Under the pieces are notes generated by a model. It was not told the DNA's origin, made no database searches, and worked only from the letters and a program-made list of their open reading frames with translations. The position numbers were made by a program, and so were the translations under genes. A stretch of 64,000 nucleotides of DNA from an uncultured Bacteroidales bacterium (lineage in GTDB: Bacteria > Bacteroidota > Bacteroidia > Bacteroidales > Bacteroidaceae). The DNA lies in NCBI GenBank assembly GCA_902800305.1, contig CADCDP010000004.1:1-64000 (forward strand). The letters are read 5' to 3'. Positions 3,068-59,063 of this stretch are shown here, piece by piece. Positions within the stretch are counted from its first letter, which is position 1. The number at the start of each line of letters is the position of its first letter.

Positions 3068-3132
3068 AACCCATTTGAAGGTTAGAGGGGAAGAAAGACC
3101 CCTTTCGGGGGTATGCCCGTAGCTATTGAATC

Positions 3133-3193
3133 GACCACGTCGTGGTCGGCGAGTTGACCACGTCGTGGTCAGTTCATCGACTACGACGTGGTC
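3133..3193. repeat. 23-base-period palindrome triplet (array A)
   Basis: Three 15-base palindromes start at 3133, 3156 and 3179, separated by two unrelated 8-base spacers, giving an exact 23-base period. The first two units are GACCACGTCGTGGTC; the third is GACTACGACGTGGTC. The array sits in the 357-base gap 3068-3424, which otherwise holds a small ACCCC/GGGGT hairpin near 3098-3112 and the promoter of the next gene. No coding region is supported in the gap. Arrays B, C and D share this architecture with different arms. Confidence 0.9.
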
Positions 3194-3374
3194 GATTTAG
3201 AGGGTTACGGGGGATGGGTACGGTGGCGCGGTGGATGTCGTTGCAGACGGGACTGGCTTTGACAAATCTGACAGCATTTCCCCCCATTGCCACGCCTACC
3301 CCTTCCTCCCAAAACCTGTTTTCTTTTTCCTTCTGCATGGTTTCTTCTTCTTTTTCTTCTAAACACCCGAAAAA

Positions 3375-8280: not shown

Positions 8281-10377
8281 ATGCGACGCATACACCTACA
8301 GAAATCGTTTATCTCCAATCCGATTGCCTTCTTGTGCAACCTCGCTCTCGTTTACCTTGCCTACGGCATCTGCCGCATTGCCTACCTTCTCGAAAACTGG
8401 GCGACCCTGTCCGAAGGTTTCGATACGCTCTCTTTCGGGGAAGCATTCAAGGGAAGCTGGATGTTCGACACCTCGGCCATCCTCTACACCAATGCCCTCT
8501 ATGCCATCCTCATGTTGTTGCCCCTCCACCTGAAGGAGCGTGACGCTTGGCAACAGGTGGCCAAGTGGATTTATGTGGGTGTGAACGGGCTTTGTGTGGT
8601 GGCCAACCTTGCCGATGCTGTCTATTTCCAATATACGGGTCGCCGCACCACTTCTTCCGTGTTCCAAGAGTTCAGCCATGAAAACAACATCGGAGACGTG
8701 ATAGGGGTGGAGATGTTGCGGCATTGGTATCTGGTGGTGTTGGGTGTTGTGTTGATAGTTGGTTTGGCTGCCCTCTATGTGAGACCGAAAGGAAAGTTCC
8801 GCCTTCACTTGCTGAAAAATATGCTCGTTTATTATACCATCCATTTGATTTGTTTTGGCTTGTATATCCCCATCACGATAGCTGGAATGAGGGGTGGTGC
8901 TACCACGGCAGTACGTCCTATCACCATCAGCAATGCCAACCAGTATGTGAACCGACCTGCTGAGGCTGCTCTGATTCTGAACACGCCTTTCTCGCTGATT
9001 CGTACCATCAACAAAAATGTCTTCGTTGACCCACAATTCTTTTCCCGTCAGGAACTGGACGAGATTTATAGTCCTGTCTATACACCAGCTGACAGTGTGG
9101 TGATGAAGAGGAAGAATGTGGTGGTGCTCATCATGGAAAGCTACGGAAGGGAGTACATCGGTGCTTACAACGAAAGGTTGGACAATGGAAATTACGAGGG
9201 TTACACCCCTTTTACCGACTCACTCATTCAGCAGTCCCTCACCTTCGATTACACCTTTGCCAATGGCCGAAAGAGTATAGACGGAATGCCATCCATCTTG
9301 TCAAGCATTCCACGCTTCATCGAGCCGTTCTTCCTCACTCCAGCCTCGATGAATGAAGTGAGTGGATTGGCTGGAGAGTTGGGCAAGGTGGGGTACGAGT
9401 CAGCTTTCTTCCATGGAGCGGAGAATGGTTCGATGGGATTTGAAGCCTTCGCCCATGCTACTGGGTACAAAGCCTATATGGGACGTACTGAGTACAACCA
9501 AGACAAACGTTTCAACGGTGACAAAGATTTTGATGGTATGTGGGCTATCTGGGACGAAGAATTTTTGCAGTTCTACGCATTGAAGATGAGCGAGATGAAA
9601 CAACCTTTTATCACTTCGGTCTTTACGGCCAGTTCGCACCATCCATATATTGTGCCAGAACGATACAAGGACATCTACAAAGACGAACCAGGAGACCCCA
9701 ACATCATGCACAAGTGCATCCGCTATGTAGATAATGCCTTGCGCCTCTTTTTCGAAACGGCTAAACAACAACCTTGGTATTCAAACACCATTTTCGTTCT
9801 TACGGCAGACCACACCAATAAAACCTCACGCCCTGAATACCAGACTGACCTTGGGGTGTTTGGTGTGCCCATCATTATCTTCGACCCTTCTGGCAAAATC
9901 CTTCCCCAACGTCGCCATTGTATTGCTCAACAAATCGATATTATGCCAACTATTCTTAACTACCTCGGTTACAAGAATTCATATTTGGCTTTTGGACAAG
10001 ACTTGCTCAATACACCCGACAGCCTCACATGGGCTGTCAATAATACGGAAGGCATCTATCAATATGTAAAAGGAGACTATGTGCTACAATTTACTGATGA
10101 TGGACATGCCAAGGCTCTCTACAACTACAAGAAAGATTGGTTCCTTAAGCAAAATCTACTGGGAAAGAAGGGTGAGAAAGAAAAACAGATGGAACGTGAA
10201 CTAAAAGCCATTATACAATCCTATATGGAAAGAATGATAGAAGACAGACTGGTTGTAAAGGGAACCGAAGGAGCAGCGAGAGCCATCCAAGCTCGCTTGG
10301 GGATGGCCGAGTCGCGACTGAGGAAGGCGAAGCCAAAAATGAAAAATGAAAAGGGAAAAGTGAAAAGAGAAAGATGA
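8281..10377 (+). CDS. LtaS-like phosphoglycerol transferase / sulfatase-fold membrane protein
   Basis: A 698-residue protein with about five N-terminal membrane helices (near 17-36, 66-84, 95-113, 148-166 and 180-200) followed by a periplasmic alkaline-phosphatase-superfamily domain. Metal and nucleophile sites are visible: IMESYGRE (about 284-291), NGRKSIDGMPS (about 328-338) where the catalytic Ser/Thr sits, and TADHTNKTS in the last third. The architecture is that of lipoteichoic acid synthase, OpgB and phosphoethanolamine transferases. With a CDP-glycerol transferase-like enzyme and LicD proteins nearby, the best guess is transfer of phosphoglycerol from phospholipid to a surface glycan. 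The last 14 codons are encoded by a heptad array, giving a Lys-rich tail. Confidence 0.82.
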   Translation: MRRIHLQKSFISNPIAFLCNLALVYLAYGICRIAYLLENWATLSEGFDTLSFGEAFKGSWMFDTSAILYTNALYAILMLLPLHLKERDAWQQVAKWIYVGVNGLCVVANLADAVYFQYTGRRTTSSVFQEFSHENNIGDVIGVEMLRHWYLVVLGVVLIVGLAALYVRPKGKFRLHLLKNMLVYYTIHLICFGLYIPITIAGMRGGATTAVRPITISNANQYVNRPAEAALILNTPFSLIRTINKNVFVDPQFFSRQELDEIYSPVYTPADSVVMKRKNVVVLIMESYGREYIGAYNERLDNGNYEGYTPFTDSLIQQSLTFDYTFANGRKSIDGMPSILSSIPRFIEPFFLTPASMNEVSGLAGELGKVGYESAFFHGAENGSMGFEAFAHATGYKAYMGRTEYNQDKRFNGDKDFDGMWAIWDEEFLQFYALKMSEMKQPFITSVFTASSHHPYIVPERYKDIYKDEPGDPNIMHKCIRYVDNALRLFFETAKQQPWYSNTIFVLTADHTNKTSRPEYQTDLGVFGVPIIIFDPSGKILPQRRHCIAQQIDIMPTILNYLGYKNSYLAFGQDLLNTPDSLTWAVNNTEGIYQYVKGDYVLQFTDDGHAKALYNYKKDWFLKQNLLGKKGEKEKQMERELKAIIQSYMERMIEDRLVVKGTEGAARAIQARLGMAESRLRKAKPKMKNEKGKVKRER
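10335..10376. repeat. Heptad array at gene junction
   Basis: Six 7-base A-rich units (AAAAATG twice, then variants such as AAAAGGG and AAAAGTG) form the 3' end of the LtaS-like gene. The final unit contains the start codon of the next gene at 10374. Confidence 0.8.
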
Positions 10378-11405
10378 AGGAACGTAACCATACTTTTGAC
10401 TTTCTGTGTGGTGTGTGCATCATTCGAATGATTGTGTTGCATACCATCACCTTCTGTGGCCACAAGAGCGACGGATGGTGGCAGGAGGTGATGGCATGGT
10501 CGTTTTTCTTCATGTGTTTCTTCTTTTTTAAGGCGGGCTATTTCAATAAGACGGTGTCGGGCAACACGAAGGCTTACGTGAAGGACAAAGCGAAGCGGCT
10601 GCTGGTGCCTTACGTGGTGTGGGGAACGATAGGTTTTCTGATTTATGCAGCCTTTCTCCCTTTCGAGATAGACCGTTACCATCATCCTGTGGAGCCGATG
10701 GAATGGAAGCATTTATGGATGACGAGTTCCTTCTGGGGGAACGAACCCGTGTGGTTCCTGTTCTCGTTCTTCTCTGCCTACGTGCTGGTGCATTTTATCA
10801 AGAAGATTCACATCGTCAAACCCATTTCAGTGTTTCAGACGGTGGTGGTGCTGGCTTGTCCTTTCCTCAGCTACTGGATGTACACCTTGGGGAATCCACT
10901 GCCCATGAGTCTAAGCAATGTCTTCATGGGTGTGTTCTTCTTCAACTTGGGGCGCACATGGCGATGGCTCATCGACCGCATGGGACGACGCTTGACGTTG
11001 ATAGTTTCTATGGTCTTGATAGCAGCGTTTGTAGTGCTGAATGTGCTGTGGCACGGTGAGTATGCCATGAGCACCAATCTTTTCCGTGGCAATCCTTGGG
11101 CTGCTTTCTTCAATACGATGATGATTCTGATTGGTTTGTCGGGATTCCTGCTGAAGTGGCCGTTGAAGCGTGTACCCGTGGTGAACTACATCGGGCAGCA
11201 TTCGATGGTTTATTTTGTGGCGCACTACCCGTTGTTGCAGTTTTATCGTTTCACACATATCTCCTTCGGTCACAGCATTTATGGTCATTGGGATGACTTC
11301 ATCGTGCTGTTGGTGTTCGTCTTTGGATTCTGTACATGGCTGGTGCCGTATGTGGAGAAAGTGCCGTGGTTGTCGGGACGATTTTCAGTCCGCAAGGTCT
11401 CTTAA
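10374..11405 (+). CDS. Acyltransferase-3 family membrane O-acyltransferase (copy 1)
   Basis: A 343-residue polytopic protein of the acyltransferase-3 family, of the fucose 4-O-acetylase/OafA type, which O-acetylates sugars at the cytoplasmic membrane. The N-terminus RNHTFDFLCGVCIIRMIVLH carries the family pattern of an early acidic residue and a helix ending in His; about ten hydrophobic helices follow. The start overlaps the LtaS-like stop (ATGA). A clear paralog lies at 12371-13420; the two share long stretches such as FKAGYFNKTVSGNTK and end alike (PYVEKVPWLSGR). Its stop codon is inside a heptad array. Probably modifies the glycan built by the neighbouring transferases. Confidence 0.85.
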   Translation: MKERNHTFDFLCGVCIIRMIVLHTITFCGHKSDGWWQEVMAWSFFFMCFFFFKAGYFNKTVSGNTKAYVKDKAKRLLVPYVVWGTIGFLIYAAFLPFEIDRYHHPVEPMEWKHLWMTSSFWGNEPVWFLFSFFSAYVLVHFIKKIHIVKPISVFQTVVVLACPFLSYWMYTLGNPLPMSLSNVFMGVFFFNLGRTWRWLIDRMGRRLTLIVSMVLIAAFVVLNVLWHGEYAMSTNLFRGNPWAAFFNTMMILIGLSGFLLKWPLKRVPVVNYIGQHSMVYFVAHYPLLQFYRFTHISFGHSIYGHWDDFIVLLVFVFGFCTWLVPYVEKVPWLSGRFSVRKVS

Positions 11406-11429
11406 ACTTTAAACTCTAAACTTTAAACT
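11402..11429. repeat. Heptad array at gene junction
   Basis: Four 7-base units (TTAAACT three times and CTAAACT once) include the stop codon of acyltransferase copy 1 and fill most of the gap before the next gene. Confidence 0.85.
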
Positions 11430-11441
11430 TTACCAATCTGA

Positions 11442-12350
11442 ATGAATATCGCCTATCTCATATCGGCTCATACCGATGCGCCTCAACTGAAAAGGCTCAT
11501 CGAGGCATTGCATCGGGATGCGCATTTCTTTGTGCATATCGACAAAAAGTCTGACCTTAGCCTTTTTACGTCGCTCATTCATCAGGACAATGTGCATTTC
11601 TTGCAGGAGAGGGTGGATGTGCGATGGGGCACCATTCTGGAGGTGGATTATCAGATGCTGCTTATCAAGGCAGCGGTGGATTTTCCTGTGCATTTCGACC
11701 GCCTCTTCTTCCTTTCGGGCATGGACTACCCGTTGTGGAGTAACGAGCGTATTACGGCATGGATAGAGGCTCAGGGGGAGAGGGAAACTTTGTGTGGCAT
11801 CTGCATGGATACAGACTACATCCGAGGGCAGCAGCGGGATTTATACACGCTGGCTCGTCCGTTCTTCAATGTCAATAGGTTAGGCAATCGCGGCAACCAA
11901 CGGCTCAGCATCTTGTGCCGCAAGGTGAAGGAATGGTTACGCTTGAGGAAATCGCTTTCTTTCACGGTGGATGGTCGTTTGTGGCATCTCTACAAAGGGT
12001 CAGCTTGGTGGTGCATCAGCGAGCGTTTGGCTTCCTATATATATAATATGTATAAGACCAAGCCAGAGATACGGCGTTATTTCGTCGATTCGTTCGGTCA
12101 GGCGGAAACGGTGATACAGACGATTGCGTTCAATTCGCCTGAATATGCTCCCAAATGTATGTTGGTGGAAGGCGAATATCCAGGCTTGGCTGCGTTGACT
12201 CCGCTCCACTTCATCATCTACGAGCCAGTCATCAAGGTGATGGACGAAACGGACTACGACACACTGATGGCGAGTGGACGGATGTTTACGAGAAAACTGG
12301 TGAGTGGCAAGAGTGACCCATTAGTAAAACTCCTAACTCCCAACACCTAA
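11442..12350 (+). CDS. GT14 (core-2/I-branching) N-acetylglucosaminyltransferase-like protein
   Basis: A 302-residue protein of the core-2/I-branching family (GT14). The opening AYLISAHTDAPQLKRLI (residues 4-20), FVHIDKKSD (30-38) and the FLSGMDYPLW block about 55 residues later are typical of bacterial members. It has no membrane segment and presumably works at the cytoplasmic face, adding a branch sugar, possibly GlcNAc or xylose. It is sandwiched between two paralogous acyltransferase genes in the same direction. Its last codons (LLTPNT) are encoded by a heptad array. The family assignment is good; the donor is not known. Confidence 0.85.
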   Translation: MNIAYLISAHTDAPQLKRLIEALHRDAHFFVHIDKKSDLSLFTSLIHQDNVHFLQERVDVRWGTILEVDYQMLLIKAAVDFPVHFDRLFFLSGMDYPLWSNERITAWIEAQGERETLCGICMDTDYIRGQQRDLYTLARPFFNVNRLGNRGNQRLSILCRKVKEWLRLRKSLSFTVDGRLWHLYKGSAWWCISERLASYIYNMYKTKPEIRRYFVDSFGQAETVIQTIAFNSPEYAPKCMLVEGEYPGLAALTPLHFIIYEPVIKVMDETDYDTLMASGRMFTRKLVSGKSDPLVKLLTPNT

Positions 12351-12370
12351 CCCCCAACTCCTAACTTAAG
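12329..12370. repeat. Heptad array at gene junction
   Basis: Six 7-base units (AACTCCT, AACTCCC, AACACCT and similar) encode the last codons of the GT14 gene and run up to the base before the next ATG at 12371. Confidence 0.9.
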
Positions 12371-20346: not shown

Positions 20347-20449
20347 GTAAAGGTTAAAGTTTAGAGTTTAAAGGTTAAAGAGGCTAACGCGGTGTTGGCA
20401 AACAAGCCGCATGGTCTTTAAACTTTAAACCTTAACCTTTAAACTTTAC
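20347..20449. repeat. Inverted pair of heptad arrays in the GH43 leader
   Basis: The left arm (20347-20382) consists of 7-base units such as GGTTAAA and GTTTAAA. The right arm (20415-20449) consists of units such as ACTTTAA and CCTTTAA. The arms are largely complementary over about 35 bases with a 32-base loop, and end 14 bases before the GH43 start codon. As RNA this would be a long A/U-rich stem in the 5' leader. Confidence 0.8.
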
Positions 20450-27764: not shown

Positions 27765-27860
27765 TAAATAGCGTAAATCTTTCCGCAGAGCACCCTTTTC
27801 TATGGAGCCAATGGGTTAAAAACTCTCTCTTTCCTTAGCCGTGTGCTCGTGACCCCGTAA

Positions 27861-27921
27861 GCGCACCCGTCGGGTACGACGCATCGCACCCGACGGGTGC
27901 GGCGTGCCGTACCCGACGGGT
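27861..27921. repeat. 23-base-period palindrome triplet (array B)
   Basis: Three 15-base units start at 27861, 27884 and 27907: GCACCCGTCGGGTAC, GCACCCGACGGGTGC and GTACCCGACGGGTGC, with 8-base spacers. Unit 1 is the exact reverse complement of unit 3. It lies in the 332-base gap 27662-27993 between hflX and the beta-helix gene; apart from that gene's promoter I see nothing else in the gap. Array C (50199-50259) uses the same arms. Confidence 0.9.
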
Positions 27922-27993
27922 GCGATTATGGGGTGCCCTGCGAGCCTTCACGCACACTTTCCGCAGGCTCTTCTTCGTGGAAGTCCGTGCGTG

Positions 27994-32996: not shown

Positions 32997-33015
32997 ATCT
33001 TATATTATTATATAA

Positions 33016-33043
33016 TGTAAAATGTGTAATGTAAAATGTGTAA
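33016..33043. repeat. Heptad array upstream of frr
   Basis: Four 7-base units, TGTAAAA and TGTGTAA alternating twice, in the 63-base gap between the small hypothetical gene and frr. Confidence 0.85.
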
Positions 33044-33059
33044 TAGCCATGCGGCTTGC

Positions 33060-41221: not shown

Positions 41222-42745
41222 CAAAATATTTTTTGATGAACGGTCTGTTTTCGTAGAAAAGTGACGATTAAAGAGGTAGCCGATGCACTCTTTGAGTATT
41301 TTAGCACCGAAAAGCCAGAGGATGCCGAGGTAGAGAAGGGCGGCGAGGGGGATGCGCACGATGAGAAGCAGGAGGGGGGTATGGATGCTCTGGGTGACGA
41401 AATGGGTGATGACCATCGCGGCAGCGGCGGTGAGAAGGAAGGGGAGCATGTCACGGAGTGCCGAACGGAAGGGGTAGCGGATTTCTTGATAGAGGAAACG
41501 GTGCCAGATGCCTGTCCAAAGAATGACGATGAGGACGTAGGTGAGGACCATGAGGGTGATTTTTTGAAATGTGAAATGTAATATGTGAAATGTAATATGG
41601 AGGTTTCCTGCTAATCCGTGAATCAGGAGGATGGCACCGAGGATGGTACAGCCTTGGGCGATAACGTTCCACATATAGACATCGGACTTGCCCCGCGAAA
41701 TGATGAGGTTGAAATAGAGGGTGGCGATGGGTAGGAAGGCTCCGCCGATGCAGAGGATTTGCATAAGATGGGCGGAAGGAAGCCACTTCTCCTTGATGAG
41801 TGTCACGATAAATTCGGGGGCAACGAGGGACAACCCGAACATGACGGGAAAGGAGACGAAACAGGTGAAGCGGAGCATCTTCGAGAAGACCCGACGAAGG
41901 CGTTCGGGGTCGTCGCCTACTTCGACGAACGCAGGTTGTGCCACGCCTTGCACCATGCCCGTGATGGTGGAGGCTCCCATCGTGTTCCACTTGTTGGCTT
42001 GGGTGTAGGTACCCACCTCCACCTTTGTGTAGAGCTTTCCGAGGACGAGGGAGAAGATGTTGTTGTTCACTTGGTTGAAGATGTTGGTAATAAGCATCTT
42101 GGAAGAGAAACCGAACATTTCCTTAATGGGCTTCATGCTAAACTGCCAGGAGGGACGGAAGTGGGAAAGCACCCAACTGAGGATGCTGACCATGAGGTTG
42201 AAGGTGAGCGTTTGGGTGGCGAGTCCCCAATAGGCCATGCCGTTGTAAGCCATGCCGATACCGACGATGCCAGAGACGAGCAAAGAGGTTGTGCCCATAA
42301 TGGCCAATTCGCGTTGCTTGATTTGTCGGAAAAGGATGGCGCGTGGCACGATGCTGAAAGAAGCGATGAAGAAGCCGAGAAAATAGTAGCGGGAAAGGGA
42401 AGTGAGGATGGGTTCGTCGAAGAAGTCGGCAATGAGTGGGGCACAAAAGAAAAACAGAATGTAGAGAAGGAGGCTGACCCCAATGTTGAACCAGAAGACG
42501 GAGTTGTAGTCGTGGTGAGTAGCATCGCGCTTGTTGGTCAAGGCGGTGACGAAGCCACTATCTTGCAAGGAGTTGGCAATAAGGGTGAAGATAGTGAGCA
42601 TCCCAATCAAGCCATAGTCAGCTTGGCCGAGCTTACGTGCCAAGACGATGCCAAACACTGCGTTCAGCACCTGCATGGCTCCGTTGTTCAAGGCTCCCCA
42701 TAGGAAGCCTCGTGCTGTCTTCGATTTTAGGTCAGTTGTAGGCAT
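41219..42745 (-). CDS. Polysaccharide flippase (MOP/Wzx-like)
   Basis: A 508-residue membrane protein with about 13-14 helices, of the MOP exporter superfamily (WzxC/TuaB-like), which flips lipid-linked sugars across the inner membrane. The start TDLKSKTARGFLWGALNNGAMQVLNAVFG is typical. The start at 42745 is chosen because it begins the family N-terminus and overlaps the previous gene by only 14 bases. Around residues 382-394 the loop NLHITFHILHFTFQK is encoded by a heptad repeat (41570-41597) in frame, just before a predicted helix. It could serve the glycan locus at 0.1-16 kb, but the distance makes that uncertain. Confidence 0.85.
   Translation of the reverse strand: MPTTDLKSKTARGFLWGALNNGAMQVLNAVFGIVLARKLGQADYGLIGMLTIFTLIANSLQDSGFVTALTNKRDATHHDYNSVFWFNIGVSLLLYILFFFCAPLIADFFDEPILTSLSRYYFLGFFIASFSIVPRAILFRQIKQRELAIMGTTSLLVSGIVGIGMAYNGMAYWGLATQTLTFNLMVSILSWVLSHFRPSWQFSMKPIKEMFGFSSKMLITNIFNQVNNNIFSLVLGKLYTKVEVGTYTQANKWNTMGASTITGMVQGVAQPAFVEVGDDPERLRRVFSKMLRFTCFVSFPVMFGLSLVAPEFIVTLIKEKWLPSAHLMQILCIGGAFLPIATLYFNLIISRGKSDVYMWNVIAQGCTILGAILLIHGLAGNLHITFHILHFTFQKITLMVLTYVLIVILWTGIWHRFLYQEIRYPFRSALRDMLPFLLTAAAAMVITHFVTQSIHTPLLLLIVRIPLAALLYLGILWLFGAKILKECIGYLFNRHFSTKTDRSSKNIL
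41570..41597. repeat. Heptad array inside the flippase gene
   Basis: Four 7-base units, TGTGAAA and TGTAATA alternating twice, in frame inside the coding sequence. The same sequence type lies between genes elsewhere in the window. Confidence 0.85.
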
Positions 42746-48648: not shown

Positions 48649-48736
48649 TAAATGATAAATGATAAATGATGAATGATAAATGAGCACAATACAAAGGGAA
48701 AAAGCCTTTTTTCACTTTTCACTCTTCACTTTTCAC
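48649..48736. repeat. Two heptad arrays between pyrE and xerD
   Basis: Array one (48649-48683) has five units (TAAATGA four times, TGAATGA once). Array two (48709-48736) has four (TTTTCAC three times, TCTTCAC once). They fill the divergent promoter region and differ in sequence although only 25 bases apart. Confidence 0.88.
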
Positions 48737-48746
48737 TTTAATTGCT

Positions 48747-48759: not shown

Positions 48760-49683
48760 ATGAATACAAAGGAACAAGAAAGATTAGTGCGTCGCTACTA
48801 CCAATATCTGAAATTGGAAAAAGCCAGCTCTCTTAATACGGTCAAGGCTTACATGCTTGACCTCGATAAGTTTATGCGTTTTTTGAAAGATGAGGGGAAA
48901 GACTTCTTGTCCATAGAGTTGGCCGATTTACATAATTTCTCGGCGTTGATGATAGACATCGGCATCCATCCTACTTCCCTGTCCCGTATTCTTTCGGGTG
49001 TGAGGAGCTTTTACCATTTTCTGGTGTTGAGTGACATCATGGAAACCAATCCTACCGAATTGTTGGAGTTTCCCAAGAAGCCTCAGCGGTTGCCCGATGT
49101 GCTGACGGTGGAAGAGATTGATGCCATTGAGGAGGTTATCGACCTAAGTGAGCCAGAGGGACAGCGAAACAAAGCCATTATAGAGACATTGTTCAGCTGT
49201 GGGTTGCGTGTGAGTGAGCTGATTGGAATGAAAATCAGCAATTTGTTTTTCGAAGAGGGATTTATCAAGGTGGAAGGAAAAGGCTCCAAGCAGCGTTTGG
49301 TGCCTATTTCGGAGAAAGCTATCCATGAGATTCGCCTCTATTTTACCGACCGTAATCTTTGGGGTGTTCCGGACGAATTTCAGGACTTCGTATTTGTGAG
49401 TCGTCGTCGAAAGAAACCCCTCACACGAGTGATGGTCTTTCTGATGATTAAGGATTTGGTGGCGAAGGCTGGCATCAAGAAAACGGTATCGCCTCACACG
49501 TTCCGACACTCTTTTGCCACTTCGTTGCTTGAAGGGGGTGCCAATTTGCGTGCCATTCAGGCGATGCTTGGTCACGAGTCGATAGCCACTACCCAGATTT
49601 ACACACACATCGAGAATACCCGTCTGCGAGAGGAAATCTTGGCGCATCATCCGCGCAATAAGAATTCACTCTTCTTCCAATAA
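48760..49683 (+). CDS. xerD: Tyrosine recombinase XerD
   Basis: A 307-residue site-specific tyrosine recombinase. The N-terminal core-binding domain (YYQYLKLEKASSLNTVKAYMLD) is followed by the catalytic domain with Arg in CGLRVSELIGM, Lys in KVEGKGSKQRLVP, the HTFRHSFAT box, and Tyr in TTQIYTHIENTR. Length and motifs fit chromosomal XerD, which resolves chromosome dimers at dif with XerC. The start at 48760 is set by the promoter. Its 3' end overlaps the convergent HU-like gene by 18 bases. No dif-like site was recognised here. Confidence 0.92.
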   Translation: MNTKEQERLVRRYYQYLKLEKASSLNTVKAYMLDLDKFMRFLKDEGKDFLSIELADLHNFSALMIDIGIHPTSLSRILSGVRSFYHFLVLSDIMETNPTELLEFPKKPQRLPDVLTVEEIDAIEEVIDLSEPEGQRNKAIIETLFSCGLRVSELIGMKISNLFFEEGFIKVEGKGSKQRLVPISEKAIHEIRLYFTDRNLWGVPDEFQDFVFVSRRRKKPLTRVMVFLMIKDLVAKAGIKKTVSPHTFRHSFATSLLEGGANLRAIQAMLGHESIATTQIYTHIENTRLREEILAHHPRNKNSLFFQ

Positions 49684-50067
49684 CTCCACGTCCTCGAAGT
49701 CCATTTTGTTGATGGTCTCCTGAAAATCTTTGTGGGGGTAAAAGCGCACTTTGACGGTGCGGACACTTCCAGCACCCAGTTCTTCTGGGGTGTCGGCACT
49801 GGCGGCATTGAAGGTGGGCTTTAAGGTGCCGATGCCTTCAATCTGTACACTGTGGCCTAACTCCAGATAGTGGCGCAAACGGTCGGACATGGCACTTGCG
49901 ATGCCTTTCACTTGTGCTGCCGACACGCCTTGTGACATCACGCACTCTTGCACGAACGACTCGAATTTAATGGGTGGGTAGTTCACTTGCTGCATCAGCC
50001 ATGCATCATGCACTTTGTGGTCGGGGCCGATGACTTTTCTCTTTACTTTTCTGTAAGGTATAGACAT
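49666..50067 (-). CDS. HU-family DNA-binding protein (Bacteroidota type)
   Basis: A 133-residue HU/IHF-like protein of the Bacteroidota kind with an extra N-terminal segment (MSIPYRKVKRKVIGPDHKVHDAW). The HU core includes the helix KFESFVQECVMSQGVSAAQVKGIASAMSD and the strand pair VQIEGIGTLKPTF, followed by an acidic C-terminus (EDVELLEEE). It probably binds and bends DNA in the nucleoid. It is transcribed toward xerD and overlaps it by 18 bases; its upstream gap carries array C. No convincing promoter was found, only a weak TACCTTTA on the minus strand near 50127. Confidence 0.85.
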   Translation of the reverse strand: MSIPYRKVKRKVIGPDHKVHDAWLMQQVNYPPIKFESFVQECVMSQGVSAAQVKGIASAMSDRLRHYLELGHSVQIEGIGTLKPTFNAASADTPEELGAGSVRTVKVRFYPHKDFQETINKMDFEDVELLEEE

Positions 50068-50198
50068 GGTTCAGTCCGTTTTTAATGTGTTACACTTGTC
50101 TTTTTCCGATATTAAATCAATTACGGCGGTAAAGGTAGCAAGTTTTTTCGACACGAACAAGCTTTCTTGCAATTATTTCTGCAGGGGACATAAAAAAC

Positions 50199-50259
50199 GC
50201 ACCCGTCGGGTACGATGTGCCGTACCCGACGGGTGCGCCGCGTCGAACCCGACGGGTGC
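50199..50259. repeat. 23-base-period palindrome triplet (array C)
   Basis: Units at 50199, 50222 and 50245: GCACCCGTCGGGTAC, GTACCCGACGGGTGC and GAACCCGACGGGTGC, with 8-base spacers. Units 1 and 2 are exact reverse complements. The array ends 10 bases before the stop codon of the Ig-like lipoprotein gene and shares its arms with array B, 22 kb away. Confidence 0.9.
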
Positions 50260-50269
50260 GATTGTGGGG

Positions 50270-52456
50270 CTATTTGTTCTTGTTCCTCAGTCGTTCCTCG
50301 TTCTTCTTTTTGATGCTCTTCTCTTTGTCTGGCTTCTGTTTGGTAATCTTTTCTGGTTTCTGCTTCGAGCGAGGACGTGCTGTGGGATTCCAGTCTTGTG
50401 TGATTTCCCACTGTGCCTTCAGGGTGAGGGCATTGGGATAGTAGTAAACGGGTTCGGGTTGGAGATGCTGGTCATAGTCACCTGTGTCCCACACACCGTT
50501 GCCGTTGAGGTCGTAGAAGAGGCTCAAGTAGTAGGTGCCGGGATGGATGAAATAGAAGTCGGCTTTCCCGTCCTTGGCCTTGACGCTCTTGACCACTTTG
50601 TCGCTGCCGTCGAGCAGATGGACAATGGCCGAGGGGTCGGCTCCTTGCAGAACGACGAAGAGGGTGGAGTAGGTGTCGAGCGACTTGAGCTTGATGGAGC
50701 GTTTCTGTGCCTCGTTGCGCTTGCCGTAGATGTTGACAAAGGCGGCTGTGTCGATGTCGAGCTGGTAGGTGGAATCGGCTTCCCATTCGGCAAAGAGACG
50801 GTAGCTCCTGATTTTTCCAGGCACTTGCCGGAAGAGGAACTTGGCAGGTTGGAAGAGGCTGTCCACCTTCAAGCTGAAGTGAATCTTGGAGAGGTCAACA
50901 GAGTCAAGTGGCTCGTTGAACTCGAAGTCGATGTTCTTGTCGGGGTCTAACGACTGTGTACCCTCGATTTTGAACTCCATGAACTCTTCGGGCATGGGGG
51001 GAATCTCGATGTCTTCCTCTTCGTCTTTTTTCTTTTTCTTGGAACTTTTCTTGGATTCGGCTTTCGTTTCAGCCTTTTCCTCCTCTCCATCCTTCGGTTT
51101 TTCAAGGAGAGAAGTGGGTGCTTTGGCCGTTAAGCTCTTGTCTATCACGACACTATCCTTTTCCTCCTTTGGAAGTGCAGGGCTTTGTGAGTCTTGATTT
51201 CCGGCTCTTCGTGCTGCGCGACGTGCCTCTTTTGCTTTTTGTTTGCATTCCTTCACCCATTCCTCGTATTTCTCCTGCTGTTGCTTGGCGATTTTCTCTT
51301 TGGTCAGCTTGGAATAGAGGTAGAGGGTGTCTATGGTGAGGGCGAGGTTGCCTGTCGTGTCGGTGGCGAAGAAGTCTATCTGGATATTGAGCGTGTCGAT
51401 GTTGTAGATGAGCGAATCCTTAATCCAATAGTTAAGGGTGTCGTTGTGCTCGCTGGCATCGATGATGAAAGCATCTTCAGCGTTGAAATTCAGTCCTGTG
51501 AGCTTGGGCAGTGTGTCGCTGGGAGCTGTGAAGTAGAGTGTGAATTGCTGAAGGATGGGACGCTCGCTTTTAAGCAGAAAGCGGTCTTGTTGGGCCGATT
51601 CGAAGGCAAGCAACACGATGTCGTCAGGGTAATAATGGGTGTAGGGGGACATCACGATAGAATCGTAATGGATGCTATCGTGCCACACGGTGTCGGGACG
51701 GAGGTCGGGACGGCTGGAGGTTTCCAGTATGCGGTCGGAGAAGGCAACCATCTCAGCACGTTGGTCGTAGATGTAGTTCTGATTTTGGTCTTTCAAGGCA
51801 AAAGCACGGTATTTACCGGGGGAAAGGCCTTTGATGACAAAGTGCCCACGACTGTCGGTGCGCGAAATGCGTTCGAAAGGAGTGGTGCGGAAAATGGAAT
51901 CGGGTAAAGAATCGGGAATGGAGTCTTGTGAGTCGGAAATGGAATCATTCCCTAATTTATAAAGCCCCACAAGTATCCCTTTGATTGGTTCCAAGTTGCT
52001 GGCTTCAAGCACATTGCCAGATACTTGGAAGGTGTCTAATTGCTCTCCCGTGGAGAAGGTAAAGGCATAGTCGCCGTAGGGATTGCCTTCGTTATTATCG
52101 ACGATAGCATCGGCGAAGTCGATGGTGTAGGTCATGTTGGGCTTGAGCGAGTCGATGAGGGTGACAGTGACTCGCTTGCCTGTGGCCTCGATTTCTGGCT
52201 GTTCTATCTGTGGAGGCGAGATGACCACCTTTTCCATGGCGTTGTCAATCTTCACCATCTCGTCGAACTCAATCACGATTTTCTTCACGTTCTTTGCGTT
52301 GGTTGCACCAAATTTAGGTGATGTGCGCACCACTTTGGGCGGTGTTTCGTCGTAGGGACCTCCATCAGGGTTGCCTATGCGAGCACACGCAAAGCATAGC
52401 AACAAGAATGTAGCTATCAAAGAGATGTGGAGAAAAAAGGATGAAGAGCGTTTCAT
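50270..52456 (-). CDS. Ig-like domain lipoprotein
   Basis: A 728-residue exported protein. The N-terminal hydrophobic segment ends at LLLCFACARIG, a likely lipobox (CFAC). Residues about 35-135 form a bacterial Ig-like domain (PPKVVRTSPKFGATNAKNVKK to YAFTFSTG), followed by a carboxypeptidase-regulatory-like beta sandwich (VSGNVLEASNLEPIKGILVGLYK). Residues about 375-490 are low-complexity and charged, with long runs of Lys and Glu, and are probably disordered. The protein ends in a basic tail (KQKPEKITKQKPDKEKS). It likely lies at the outer membrane surface or in the periplasm. It overlaps the GH3 gene by 4 bases, so co-transcribed. Function unknown. Confidence 0.8.
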   Translation of the reverse strand: MKRSSSFFLHISLIATFLLLCFACARIGNPDGGPYDETPPKVVRTSPKFGATNAKNVKKIVIEFDEMVKIDNAMEKVVISPPQIEQPEIEATGKRVTVTLIDSLKPNMTYTIDFADAIVDNNEGNPYGDYAFTFSTGEQLDTFQVSGNVLEASNLEPIKGILVGLYKLGNDSISDSQDSIPDSLPDSIFRTTPFERISRTDSRGHFVIKGLSPGKYRAFALKDQNQNYIYDQRAEMVAFSDRILETSSRPDLRPDTVWHDSIHYDSIVMSPYTHYYPDDIVLLAFESAQQDRFLLKSERPILQQFTLYFTAPSDTLPKLTGLNFNAEDAFIIDASEHNDTLNYWIKDSLIYNIDTLNIQIDFFATDTTGNLALTIDTLYLYSKLTKEKIAKQQQEKYEEWVKECKQKAKEARRAARRAGNQDSQSPALPKEEKDSVVIDKSLTAKAPTSLLEKPKDGEEEKAETKAESKKSSKKKKKDEEEDIEIPPMPEEFMEFKIEGTQSLDPDKNIDFEFNEPLDSVDLSKIHFSLKVDSLFQPAKFLFRQVPGKIRSYRLFAEWEADSTYQLDIDTAAFVNIYGKRNEAQKRSIKLKSLDTYSTLFVVLQGADPSAIVHLLDGSDKVVKSVKAKDGKADFYFIHPGTYYLSLFYDLNGNGVWDTGDYDQHLQPEPVYYYPNALTLKAQWEITQDWNPTARPRSKQKPEKITKQKPDKEKSIKKKNEERLRNKNK

Positions 52457-56715: not shown

Positions 56716-58521
56716 TTACTCTTCCCGGTTAGCTCTCTTCCGCTCCAGATGGTCGAGGATGATTTTGCGGATGCGCATACTTTTCGGGGTTACCTCCACG
56801 TATTCGTCGGCCTTGATATACTCCAATGCCTCTTCCAGCGACAGGACAACAGGTGGGATGATGTGCGCCTTCTCGTCTGTTCCGCTCGCGCGTACATTAG
56901 TTAGTTGCTTTGCTTTGGTCACATTGATGACCAAATCTATCTCGTGTACATGTTCGCCCACCACTTGGCCAGCATAGACGGTGTCTTGTGGGAAGATGAA
57001 GAACTTGCCACGGTCTTGTAGATGGTCGATGGCGTAGGCGAAAGCCGTACCTCCTTCCAACGCAATGAGTGAACCATTGGTGCGACGTGTGATTTCGCCC
57101 TTGAAAGGTTGGTAGTTCTTGAAGCGGTGTGCCATGATGGCCTCCCCTTGACTGGCGGTAAGCACATTGGTTCGCAGACCGATAATGCCGCGTGAAGGTA
57201 TTTCGAACTCGATGTTCACACGGTCGCCCTGTGCTTCCATGCTCACCATTTCGCCCTTGCGACGTGTCGCCATGTCTATCATTTTGCTGGCAAATTCTTC
57301 TGGCACATTGATGGTCAGTTCCTCTATCGGTTCGCACTTCACCCCATTGATTTCCTTGTAGATAACCTGTGGCTGTCCCACTTGCAGTTCGTAGCCCTCG
57401 CGCCGCATGGTCTCGATGAGCACAGACAGATGGAGCACACCACGTCCACTCACAATCCACTGGTCGGTGCAGCCTTCCTTCGTCTCCACTCTGAGGGCAA
57501 GGTTCTTTTCCAGTTCCTTGTAAAGGCGATCACCGATGTGGCGGCTCGTGCAGTACTTGCCTTCCTTGCCGAAGAAGGGGGAGTTGTTGATGGTGAAGAG
57601 CATCGACATGGTAGGTTCGTCAATGCTGATGGTGGGCAGTGCCTCTGGCTCTTCGAAGTCGCAGATGGTATCGCCGATTTCAAAGTTGGAGAGGCCAATC
57701 ACGGCACAAATATCGCCTGAGCTAACCGCTTCTGTAGCACGATGCCCCATTCCTTCAAACGTGTGCAGTTCCTTAATCTTCGTCTTCTCCATGCTGCCAT
57801 TGCGGTGAGCAATGGTGATGTTCTGTCCTGCTCGGAGCGTGCCACGATGTACACGTCCCACAGCGATGCGTCCCGTGTAGGTAGAGTAATCCAGACTCGT
57901 GATGAGCATCTGGGGAGTGCCCTCCAGTTGTTCGGGAGCGGGAATAGTGTTGAGAATCACGTCAAGCAGGTAGGTAATGTCTTGAGTCGGCGTGTTGTAG
58001 TCGGGACCCATCCACCCCTGCTTGGCGGAGCCGTACACCACGGGAAAATCCAGCTGGTCTTCTGTGGCGTTGAGCGAGAACATCAGGTCGAACACCATTT
58101 CGTACACCTCTTCTGGGCGACAATTCGGCTTATCGACCTTGTTCACCACCACCACAGGCTTCAGCCCAATTTCCAGTGCCTTCTGTAGCACAAAGCGTGT
58201 CTGTGGCATCGGACCTTCGAACGCATCCACCAACAGAATACATCCGTCCGCCATGTTCAGCACACGCTCCACCTCGCCACCGAAGTCGCTGTGTCCCGGT
58301 GTGTCAATGACGTTAATCTTTGTACCTTTATAATTTATAGAGACGTTCTTCGAGAGAATCGTTATTCCCCGTTCACGTTCCAGTTCGTTGTTGTCCAAAA
58401 TTAAATCGCCCGTCTGCTGATTCTCGCGGAAAAGGTTTCCCGCCAGCAACATCTTGTCAACCAGCGTCGTCTTTCCGTGGTCAACGTGTGCAATAATCGC
58501 AATGTTTCTAATGTCCTGCAT
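56716..58521 (-). CDS. typA: Translational GTPase TypA/BipA
   Basis: A 601-residue ribosome-binding GTPase needed for 50S assembly and growth in the cold or under stress. The G1 motif AHVDHGKTTL is at residues 10-19, followed by DTPGHSDFGGEVERV and NKVDKP; the beta-barrel and two alpha-beta domains follow, ending in the basic IRKIILDHLERKRANREE tail typical of BipA. The start at 58521 is chosen because longer frames run through the promoter and repeats. Its leader contains an 18-base duplication. Confidence 0.95.
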   Translation of the reverse strand: MQDIRNIAIIAHVDHGKTTLVDKMLLAGNLFRENQQTGDLILDNNELERERGITILSKNVSINYKGTKINVIDTPGHSDFGGEVERVLNMADGCILLVDAFEGPMPQTRFVLQKALEIGLKPVVVVNKVDKPNCRPEEVYEMVFDLMFSLNATEDQLDFPVVYGSAKQGWMGPDYNTPTQDITYLLDVILNTIPAPEQLEGTPQMLITSLDYSTYTGRIAVGRVHRGTLRAGQNITIAHRNGSMEKTKIKELHTFEGMGHRATEAVSSGDICAVIGLSNFEIGDTICDFEEPEALPTISIDEPTMSMLFTINNSPFFGKEGKYCTSRHIGDRLYKELEKNLALRVETKEGCTDQWIVSGRGVLHLSVLIETMRREGYELQVGQPQVIYKEINGVKCEPIEELTINVPEEFASKMIDMATRRKGEMVSMEAQGDRVNIEFEIPSRGIIGLRTNVLTASQGEAIMAHRFKNYQPFKGEITRRTNGSLIALEGGTAFAYAIDHLQDRGKFFIFPQDTVYAGQVVGEHVHEIDLVINVTKAKQLTNVRASGTDEKAHIIPPVVLSLEEALEYIKADEYVEVTPKSMRIRKIILDHLERKRANREE

Positions 58522-58643: not shown

Positions 58644-58849
58644 GTTTTCCTTGTCGTTTTTCATATTTCAGTGTTATACAAGTCATTCGGGGCGTGGAGT
58701 AACGTTTTTTTACCACATTTCTTCATTTTTTCTTCCCAAAGTTCTTCGTCTCTCTCCAAAACTCTTGCAAATTAACCCGTCAGCAGCTTCTAGTCGTAAG
58801 TTAGGAAAGTGATAACCAAGATTAGCGAATCACAAAACACTTCCAATGA

Positions 58850-58933
58850 GTCTTCGACGTTGAGTCTCGAGGGGCAACGACGTAGAGTCACGAGACTCAA
58901 CGACGAAGAGTCATGCGAGGCAACGACGTTGCA
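58850..58933. repeat. 23-base-period array with four units (array D)
   Basis: Four units are centred on CGACG at 58857, 58880, 58903 and 58926, exactly 23 bases apart. Cores are AACGACG-type with variable arms (for example CTCAACGACGAAGAG and GGCAACGACGTTGCA), less perfectly palindromic than in arrays A-C. It lies in the 809-base typA-rpsO gap (58522-59330), which holds, besides this, the typA promoter and 18-base repeats, array E, the rpsO promoter and no supported gene. Confidence 0.85.
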
Positions 58934-59063
58934 TATAAGGAAGGTGTTGGCAAAATTGCCCGAATCCTTTATAAGAAACAGCAAGGTAGCGTTCCGCAAT
59001 CGGAACTTACATTTGGTTATTTCCTACTTCGTATCTTCCCAAGTAAACACGAGCCTCTGAGAT

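Follow-up and report, generated by a model that had tools for sequence, protein, structure and literature searches.

A family of palindromic repeat elements, each about 100 bp long and built from dyads with a fixed pitch of 23 bp, is dispersed in a genus of rumen Bacteroidales; the dyad cores and arms differ by species and are near uniform, by family, within one genome. With about even confidence, these elements are read here as a short, non-autonomous mobile family similar to the Rickettsia palindromic elements, with arrayed sites for a putative DNA-binding protein or recombinase. This reading draws on the architecture, the copy number, copies that lie in frame within genes, filled and empty sites, core differences at shared sites, and the lack of covariation in pairing. 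The elements came to notice in a window of 64,000 nucleotides, the whole stretch of DNA that was analysed, in which a first-pass annotation had described four arrays (A to D) of palindromes with a period of 23 bases.

These arrays are real. Palindrome triplets were sought in the window at every period from 12 to 60, under a strict threshold and with 50 Markov shuffles as control. Arrays A, B and C are the sole triplets found, all at period 23; the shuffles gave none at this period and one over all periods. Each of the three is a triplet of odd-centred palindromes with a pitch of exactly 23 bp (Table 1). The first-pass annotation placed them nearly correctly, one or two bases off (array B begins at 27862, array C at 50198), and rightly saw palindromic units. 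Its length of 15 bases gives way to the 17-mer CG-n4-core5-n4-CG, and the spacers, taken for eight bases of unrelated sequence, are six bases long and fit R-Y-n-n-R-Y.

Table 1. Positions of the arrays and their flanks in the window.
Feature	Position	Strand	Description
Left terminal inverted repeat of array A	3112..3131	no strand	...CCCGTAGCTATTGAAT
Array A	3132..3194	no strand	three 17-bp dyads at 3132, 3155, 3178; ACCA arms, CGWCG core
Right terminal inverted repeat of array A	3195..3214	no strand	TTTAGAGGGTTACGGG...
Left inverted-repeat flank of array B	27842..27861	no strand	TGTGCTCGTGACCCCGTAAG
Array B	27862..27924	no strand	three dyads, CACC arms, CGWCG core
Right inverted-repeat flank of array B	27925..27944	no strand	ATTATGGGGTGCCCTGCGAG
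Array C	50198..50260	no strand	three dyads, CACC arms, CGWCG core
Right inverted-repeat flank of array C	50261..50280	no strand	holds stop codon of neighbouring gene
Element D	58834..58952	+	AAAACACTTCC...CGWCG x4 at 58855, 58878, 58901, 58924...GGAAGGTGTTGG

Array A belongs to the arm class that is the rarer one in the host genome (G000) and the main one in its relative G020 (RGIG4883). Array B lies within a 332-bp gap in G000, with hflX and a DUF4954 gene on either side; in many relatives these two genes directly adjoin or overlap, and the locus is a filled/empty site pair for this array. Array C overlaps a Big_5-domain lipoprotein gene (50270–52456, − strand) at the gene's 3′ end. An HU-HIG (HU-domain) gene at 49666–50067 sits between xerD and array C.

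The A/B/C architecture can be written as CG-n13-CG-n6 over three units. The 63-bp triplet and inverted ends of about 20 bp together make an element of about 103 bp; terminal inverted repeats, a feature of MITEs, are present and read CTTCCACAACCTCTAAAT...GAGGTTGTGGAAG in relatives. The arrays in turn sit inside longer inverted repeats, the outer units of which keep the same 23-bp register. Information per unit is 31–35 bits in the three central units, 9–18 bits in the unit adjoining them on either side, and some 1–6 bits further out. In relatives, copies of the flanking motif CCACAACCTC stand at −15, −38, −61 and −84 from the array, namely in exact 23-bp steps, and the autocorrelation of the flanks peaks at lags 23 and 46 near the array, with no peaks 120–210 bp away. 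The element is thus an array in a 23-bp register that is strongest at its centre.

Three units per array are the rule (39/39 in G000, 57/59 in named relatives, 15/16 in G013). Variants with two, four, five and six units also occur, and the longest arrays comprise ten units in G103, six in G014 and five to six in G007. Spacers are diverse among the A/B/C arrays, and dyads uniform. A spacing of 23 is strongly preferred among 168 pairs of strong dyads lying 10–80 bp apart (103 pairs at 23, 61 at 46 and two at 69), most of these loci having been fetched with a 23-bp pattern; the unbiased test is the window scan, in which triplets occur at 23 only. When all six frames are considered, the elements are only slightly more open than random 103-mers and thus show no special coding design.

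The host genome amounts to 3.67 Mb in 70 contigs, and all genomes compared are draft sequences, mostly metagenome-assembled. A genome-wide scan for CGWCG centres at 23-base spacing, as the first-pass annotation had proposed, gave 107 matches to CGWCG-N18-CGWCG-N18-CGWCG in G000 and none to the reversed-pattern control. With overlapping matches merged, G000 carries at least 73 arrays among the matches listed and fetched, divided into 46 A/B/C arrays and about 27 D arrays. The bare architecture pattern has matches in 23 of the 45 genomes of the genus. About 19 have at least 12 matches (maximum 116, in G033); the one to three matches each in G016, G022, G031 and G034 look like chance or unrelated repeats, and about half of the genus is without the pattern.

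Outside the genus, the only case convincing by eye in an order-wide scan of 393 genomes is a sister genus, represented by G103 (22 matches); the other order-wide matches of the bare CG-spacing pattern look, by eye, like chance or unrelated direct repeats. The ten-unit array of G103 (L381:9172–9395), with CGATGATATCGTCATCG-type dyads at 23-bp pitch, lies between two called genes. The named carriers are metagenome-assembled Bacteroidales of the rumen, with Prevotellaceae or Bacteroidaceae as family label. High-GC matches in the scan for named carriers are chance or unrelated repeats, and the viral contigs scanned for the CGWCG class gave no matches. The elements had been taken for an undescribed class of repeat in one lineage; this is apparently so, with the genus and one sister genus carrying the architecture.

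Motif classes vary from species to species. G000 has mainly CGCACC-CGWCG-GGTGCG and rarely CGACCA-CGWCG-TGGTCG, the latter being the class of G020. CGAYRT-CGWCG-AYRTCG is the main class in G036, G026, G017 and G003; cores are of the GTGGGGCAC type in G007 and mainly CCC/GGG in G013, with some CGWCG copies; G014 has three classes, and G062 yet another. The initial impression of a conserved architecture with varying sequence is thereby supported. The differences in arms once noted between loci are found between species, while within one genome the arms are near uniform by family. In RGIG4883 and RGIG4941, some arrays (L088, L089, L085, L087, L042) are enclosed by an additional outer inverted repeat, GAGGGTGTGTCAAA...TTTGACACACCCTC, which resembles an insertion-sequence end or a large terminator. 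L046, L056, L061, L062 and L106, some of them within one genome, have a near-identical left flank, TTCAAGACCTGCGTTGACCCTCTTCCACAACC, which suggests recent duplication of a longer stretch.

Element D, previously described as a less perfect array of the A–C type, belongs to a separate, well-conserved 23-bp family. Its conserved sequence, about 120 bp long, is its own, as are its ends, and it has four CGWCG at 23-bp pitch. In the window it lies upstream of typA/bipA (56716–58521, − strand). About 22–27 copies are found in G000, mostly upstream of genes, with the right end facing the gene start in 16 of 20 scorable cases; related but different D-like sequences occur in other species.

Gene positions were taken from a simple codon-based gene caller. 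Of 24 copies in G000 between genes of the same direction, 22 are closer to the stop codon upstream than to the start codon that follows, and 9 of 41 copies lie between convergent genes; this 3′-end bias fits promoter avoidance or a 3′-end role. The elements are more than the intergenic repeats they were first called, since copies also lie inside called genes (4 of about 50 in G000 and 15 of about 60 in relatives, including a few near gene starts that are possible annotation artefacts). Clear in-frame copies occur in PrmC, glycerate kinase, CbiJ/CbiD, GSCFA and an NtrC-type regulator, and a further one in a conserved gene that has no Pfam match. In the PrmC of G000, the alignment with homologues of solved structure is broken around the insert, which is absent from most orthologues parsed in relatives. 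The PrmC match of G020 (L263) is split near residues 106–108, away from the insert site of G000, and has one in-frame TGA; this is possibly a different insertion or a frame problem. In the gene without a Pfam match, G013 and G036, which are near relatives, show an in-frame difference of exactly 102 bp. Because an element with other arms occupies this place in other species, G036 may have lost its copy.

Most sites are lineage-specific. At 4-kb loci around xerD, hflX or prmC, a copy is present in only two or three of the 17–18 element-bearing genomes, which argues for mobility with selection against harm; at the glycerate-kinase locus, it is present in 13 of 16. The window also holds tandem repeats of period 7 (or 14), at 10335–10378, 11402–11432, 12328–12366, 20348–20448, 33013–33044, 41565–41599 and 48649–48739, mostly between genes or at gene ends. 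Repeats of this kind (GTTGAGA/GTTGACA heptamers) occur at more than 50 places each in G026 and G017, and fill the PrmC loop in several species.

Conserved sites allow the motifs of different species to be compared in place. In the glycerate kinase gene, 13 species share the insertion point of the element and its truncated right end, and five core/arm types occur among them; in six other species the gene is without an element. In the carriers of known genome-wide class (G000, G007, G013, G014, G036, G026, G017 and G003), the local motif agrees with that class. At four further sites, the loci to which the class-switch comparison is confined, G013 and G036 are 88% identical in the flanks, 86% in the ends and 77% in the arrays, and every compared core is switched, CCC/GGG versus GWC. 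The spacers at three of the four sites are 0.53 alike versus 0.54 for random pairs, whereas variable arm bases are 0.78 alike versus 0.49; the data are thus compatible with either wholesale replacement or stepwise change. At one G013 locus, three CCC units and three CGWCG units are joined in register into a six-unit chimera; the G036 counterpart consists of three CGWCG units. We tentatively suggest, at rather less than even confidence, that the elements are nucleoprotein arrays in which the recognition motif has switched in concert across all copies while the insertion sites stay put.

The elements point to a mobile or DNA-binding system with a putative protein partner. The core of about 100 bp would be an array of binding sites in duplex DNA, with three 17-bp dyads at 23-bp pitch, around which inverted, weaker flanking sites continue the register. 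A putative dimeric DNA-binding protein may assemble on this array, most likely a recombinase or transposase that would move the element and so cause its spread. The suggestion of sites for a multimeric protein had been made before, and the look of the arrays supports it. Insertion would occur near the 3′ ends of genes and, in frame, within tolerant protein loops. When the recognised core or arms change, the copies of a genome would be replaced or converted in place by some presumed route, so that orthologous sites keep the element but show the new motif.

No protein partner was found for the arrays, and a non-exhaustive search gave no autonomous copy or cognate insertion sequence. The filled/empty pair L307/L342 has no clean target-site duplication, and the genes beside the longest arrays (G103, G014, G007) include no consistent candidate common to them. 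XerD, suggested as the mover by array C and by copies adjoining xerD in G013 and G036, was rejected, since copies lie near xerD in 3 of 18 element-bearing genomes, no more than near hflX (3 of 18). Multi-dimer recombinase sites, such as the res sites of serine resolvases, have three inverted-repeat subsites within about 100 bp. The present arrays bear a resemblance only, and differ in their equal 23-bp pitch, very high copy number and lack of an adjacent recombinase gene.

A minor but real chance attaches to chromosomal sites that serve the host and are essentially not mobile DNA; the host protein that binds them, of a nucleoid, segregation or silencing type, would drift in specificity between species, and its sites would follow by selection. 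The fixed unit number and register, the decaying outer sites, the conserved arms with varying spacers, and the dispersal over 3.67 Mb are all in keeping with such sites. However, positions are mostly unconserved at the xerD, hflX and prmC loci, the usefulness of insertions inside conserved enzymes is hard to see, and about half of the genus does without the pattern. It is distinctly unlikely that no dedicated protein is involved and that selfish palindromic repeats are homogenised by general recombination only, namely by gene conversion, unequal crossing-over or repair induced by hairpin nucleases. The in-register 3+3 chimera, the variants in unit number and the concerted change of class would suit this process, but plain conversion would homogenise spacers and dyads alike, and the unit count is fixed at three.

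RNA elements, in which stem-loops act as terminators or stabilise mRNA 3′ ends, are quite improbable. The position of copies close to upstream stops and between convergent genes in G000 would favour them, and long inverted repeats could fold. Yet Watson–Crick combinations at the variable dyad pairs are rarer than expected (odds ratios 0.29, 0.13, 0.00, 0.00 and 0.24), and on the transcribed strand G-U is no commoner than A-C. Selected base pairing would give covariation; the opposite is seen in both frames considered, so hairpin pairing is not the conserved feature, and the processed hairpins envisaged earlier are disfavoured. Rfam gave no matches at the gathering threshold for ten array loci, and the in-frame copies inside genes also speak against an RNA role. 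Dyad symmetry is kept at the purine/pyrimidine level, as would be expected for half-sites read in duplex DNA, the related copies being non-independent. REP/REPIN repeats moved by a RAYT tyrosine transposase deserve next to no credence and are largely refuted. The elements do resemble REPs in copy number, in their palindromic units, in being species-specific in sequence and in having copies within genes (PMC3733652). Yet PF01797 has no matches in G000, is absent from the likewise element-rich G007, G013, G002, G010 and G011, is strong in some element-poor genomes (G025, G034) and is uncorrelated with the arrays, and no consensus has a GTAG foot.

If the concerted switch of motif in a protein-bound array is correct, it represents a bacterial system of rapid co-evolution between a putative DNA-binding protein and about a hundred dispersed sites, some of which are translated as part of host enzymes. 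Protein-coding palindromic repeats are an oddity, best known from Rickettsiales, and we know of no mover for them. The many relatives with differing motifs, shared sites, empty sites and chimeras make insertion, loss and motif change traceable through the phylogeny. Should a protein be co-evolving with the motif, matching its DNA-binding domain to the motif class across genomes would be a way to find it; its discovery would address how such repeats spread, and how about a hundred dispersed sites change specificity jointly.

The view that no named family has this design is correct if the exact design is meant, although closely similar kinds of repeat are known, namely Rickettsia palindromic elements and REPs (PMC3733652, PMC2229807). 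Rickettsia palindromic elements, including RPE-4 and RPE-6, are intergenic and in-frame repeats with no known transposase; in-frame palindromic repeats are established in Rickettsia, and several other bacteria have them in the form of REPs (PMC2229807, PMC3733652). As a kind, the present elements are alike: palindromic repeats of about 100 bp with inverted ends, found between genes and in frame in conserved proteins. They are set apart by description, namely by a different phylum, a strict triplet at 23-bp pitch that extends outwards, species-specific cores, pairing that is not conserved, and the lack of an end tag. CGTC-tagged REPs have stems of 8–9 bp, loops of 4–5 nt and an unpaired terminal CGTC, and form mainly head-to-head dimers; some are intragenic, they have no dedicated transposase, and Bacteroidetes hosts are reported (PMC3733652). 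The short palindromes, some of them intragenic, are common to both. In the present elements, however, CGTC is central in the GWC class, has gone from the classes with CCC/GGG cores and is missing from the cores of G007, G013 and G018, and the units come in threes; the family falls outside the CGTC-REP definition. GTAG REPs and REPINs with RAYT share the high-copy, species-specific palindromic units, mainly downstream of genes, and differ in the GTAG and PF01797 features discussed above.

BrickBuilt of Porphyromonas gingivalis is a MITE-like repeat with a 23-nt unit, AGAYCATARTATCCTCTCRTRTG, 18 full repeats in one copy, and ends that match a P. gingivalis insertion sequence (PMC4596501). A Bacteroidales host and a 23-nt repeat unit are shared; identity was rejected, the BrickBuilt unit being unrelated to the consensus units by inspection and its arrays longer. 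The open-access literature held no prior description of palindromic repeats in rumen Bacteroidales. What seems new, compared with all of these systems, is a fixed triplet within a longer 23-bp register, combined with a genome-wide change of motif at conserved sites.
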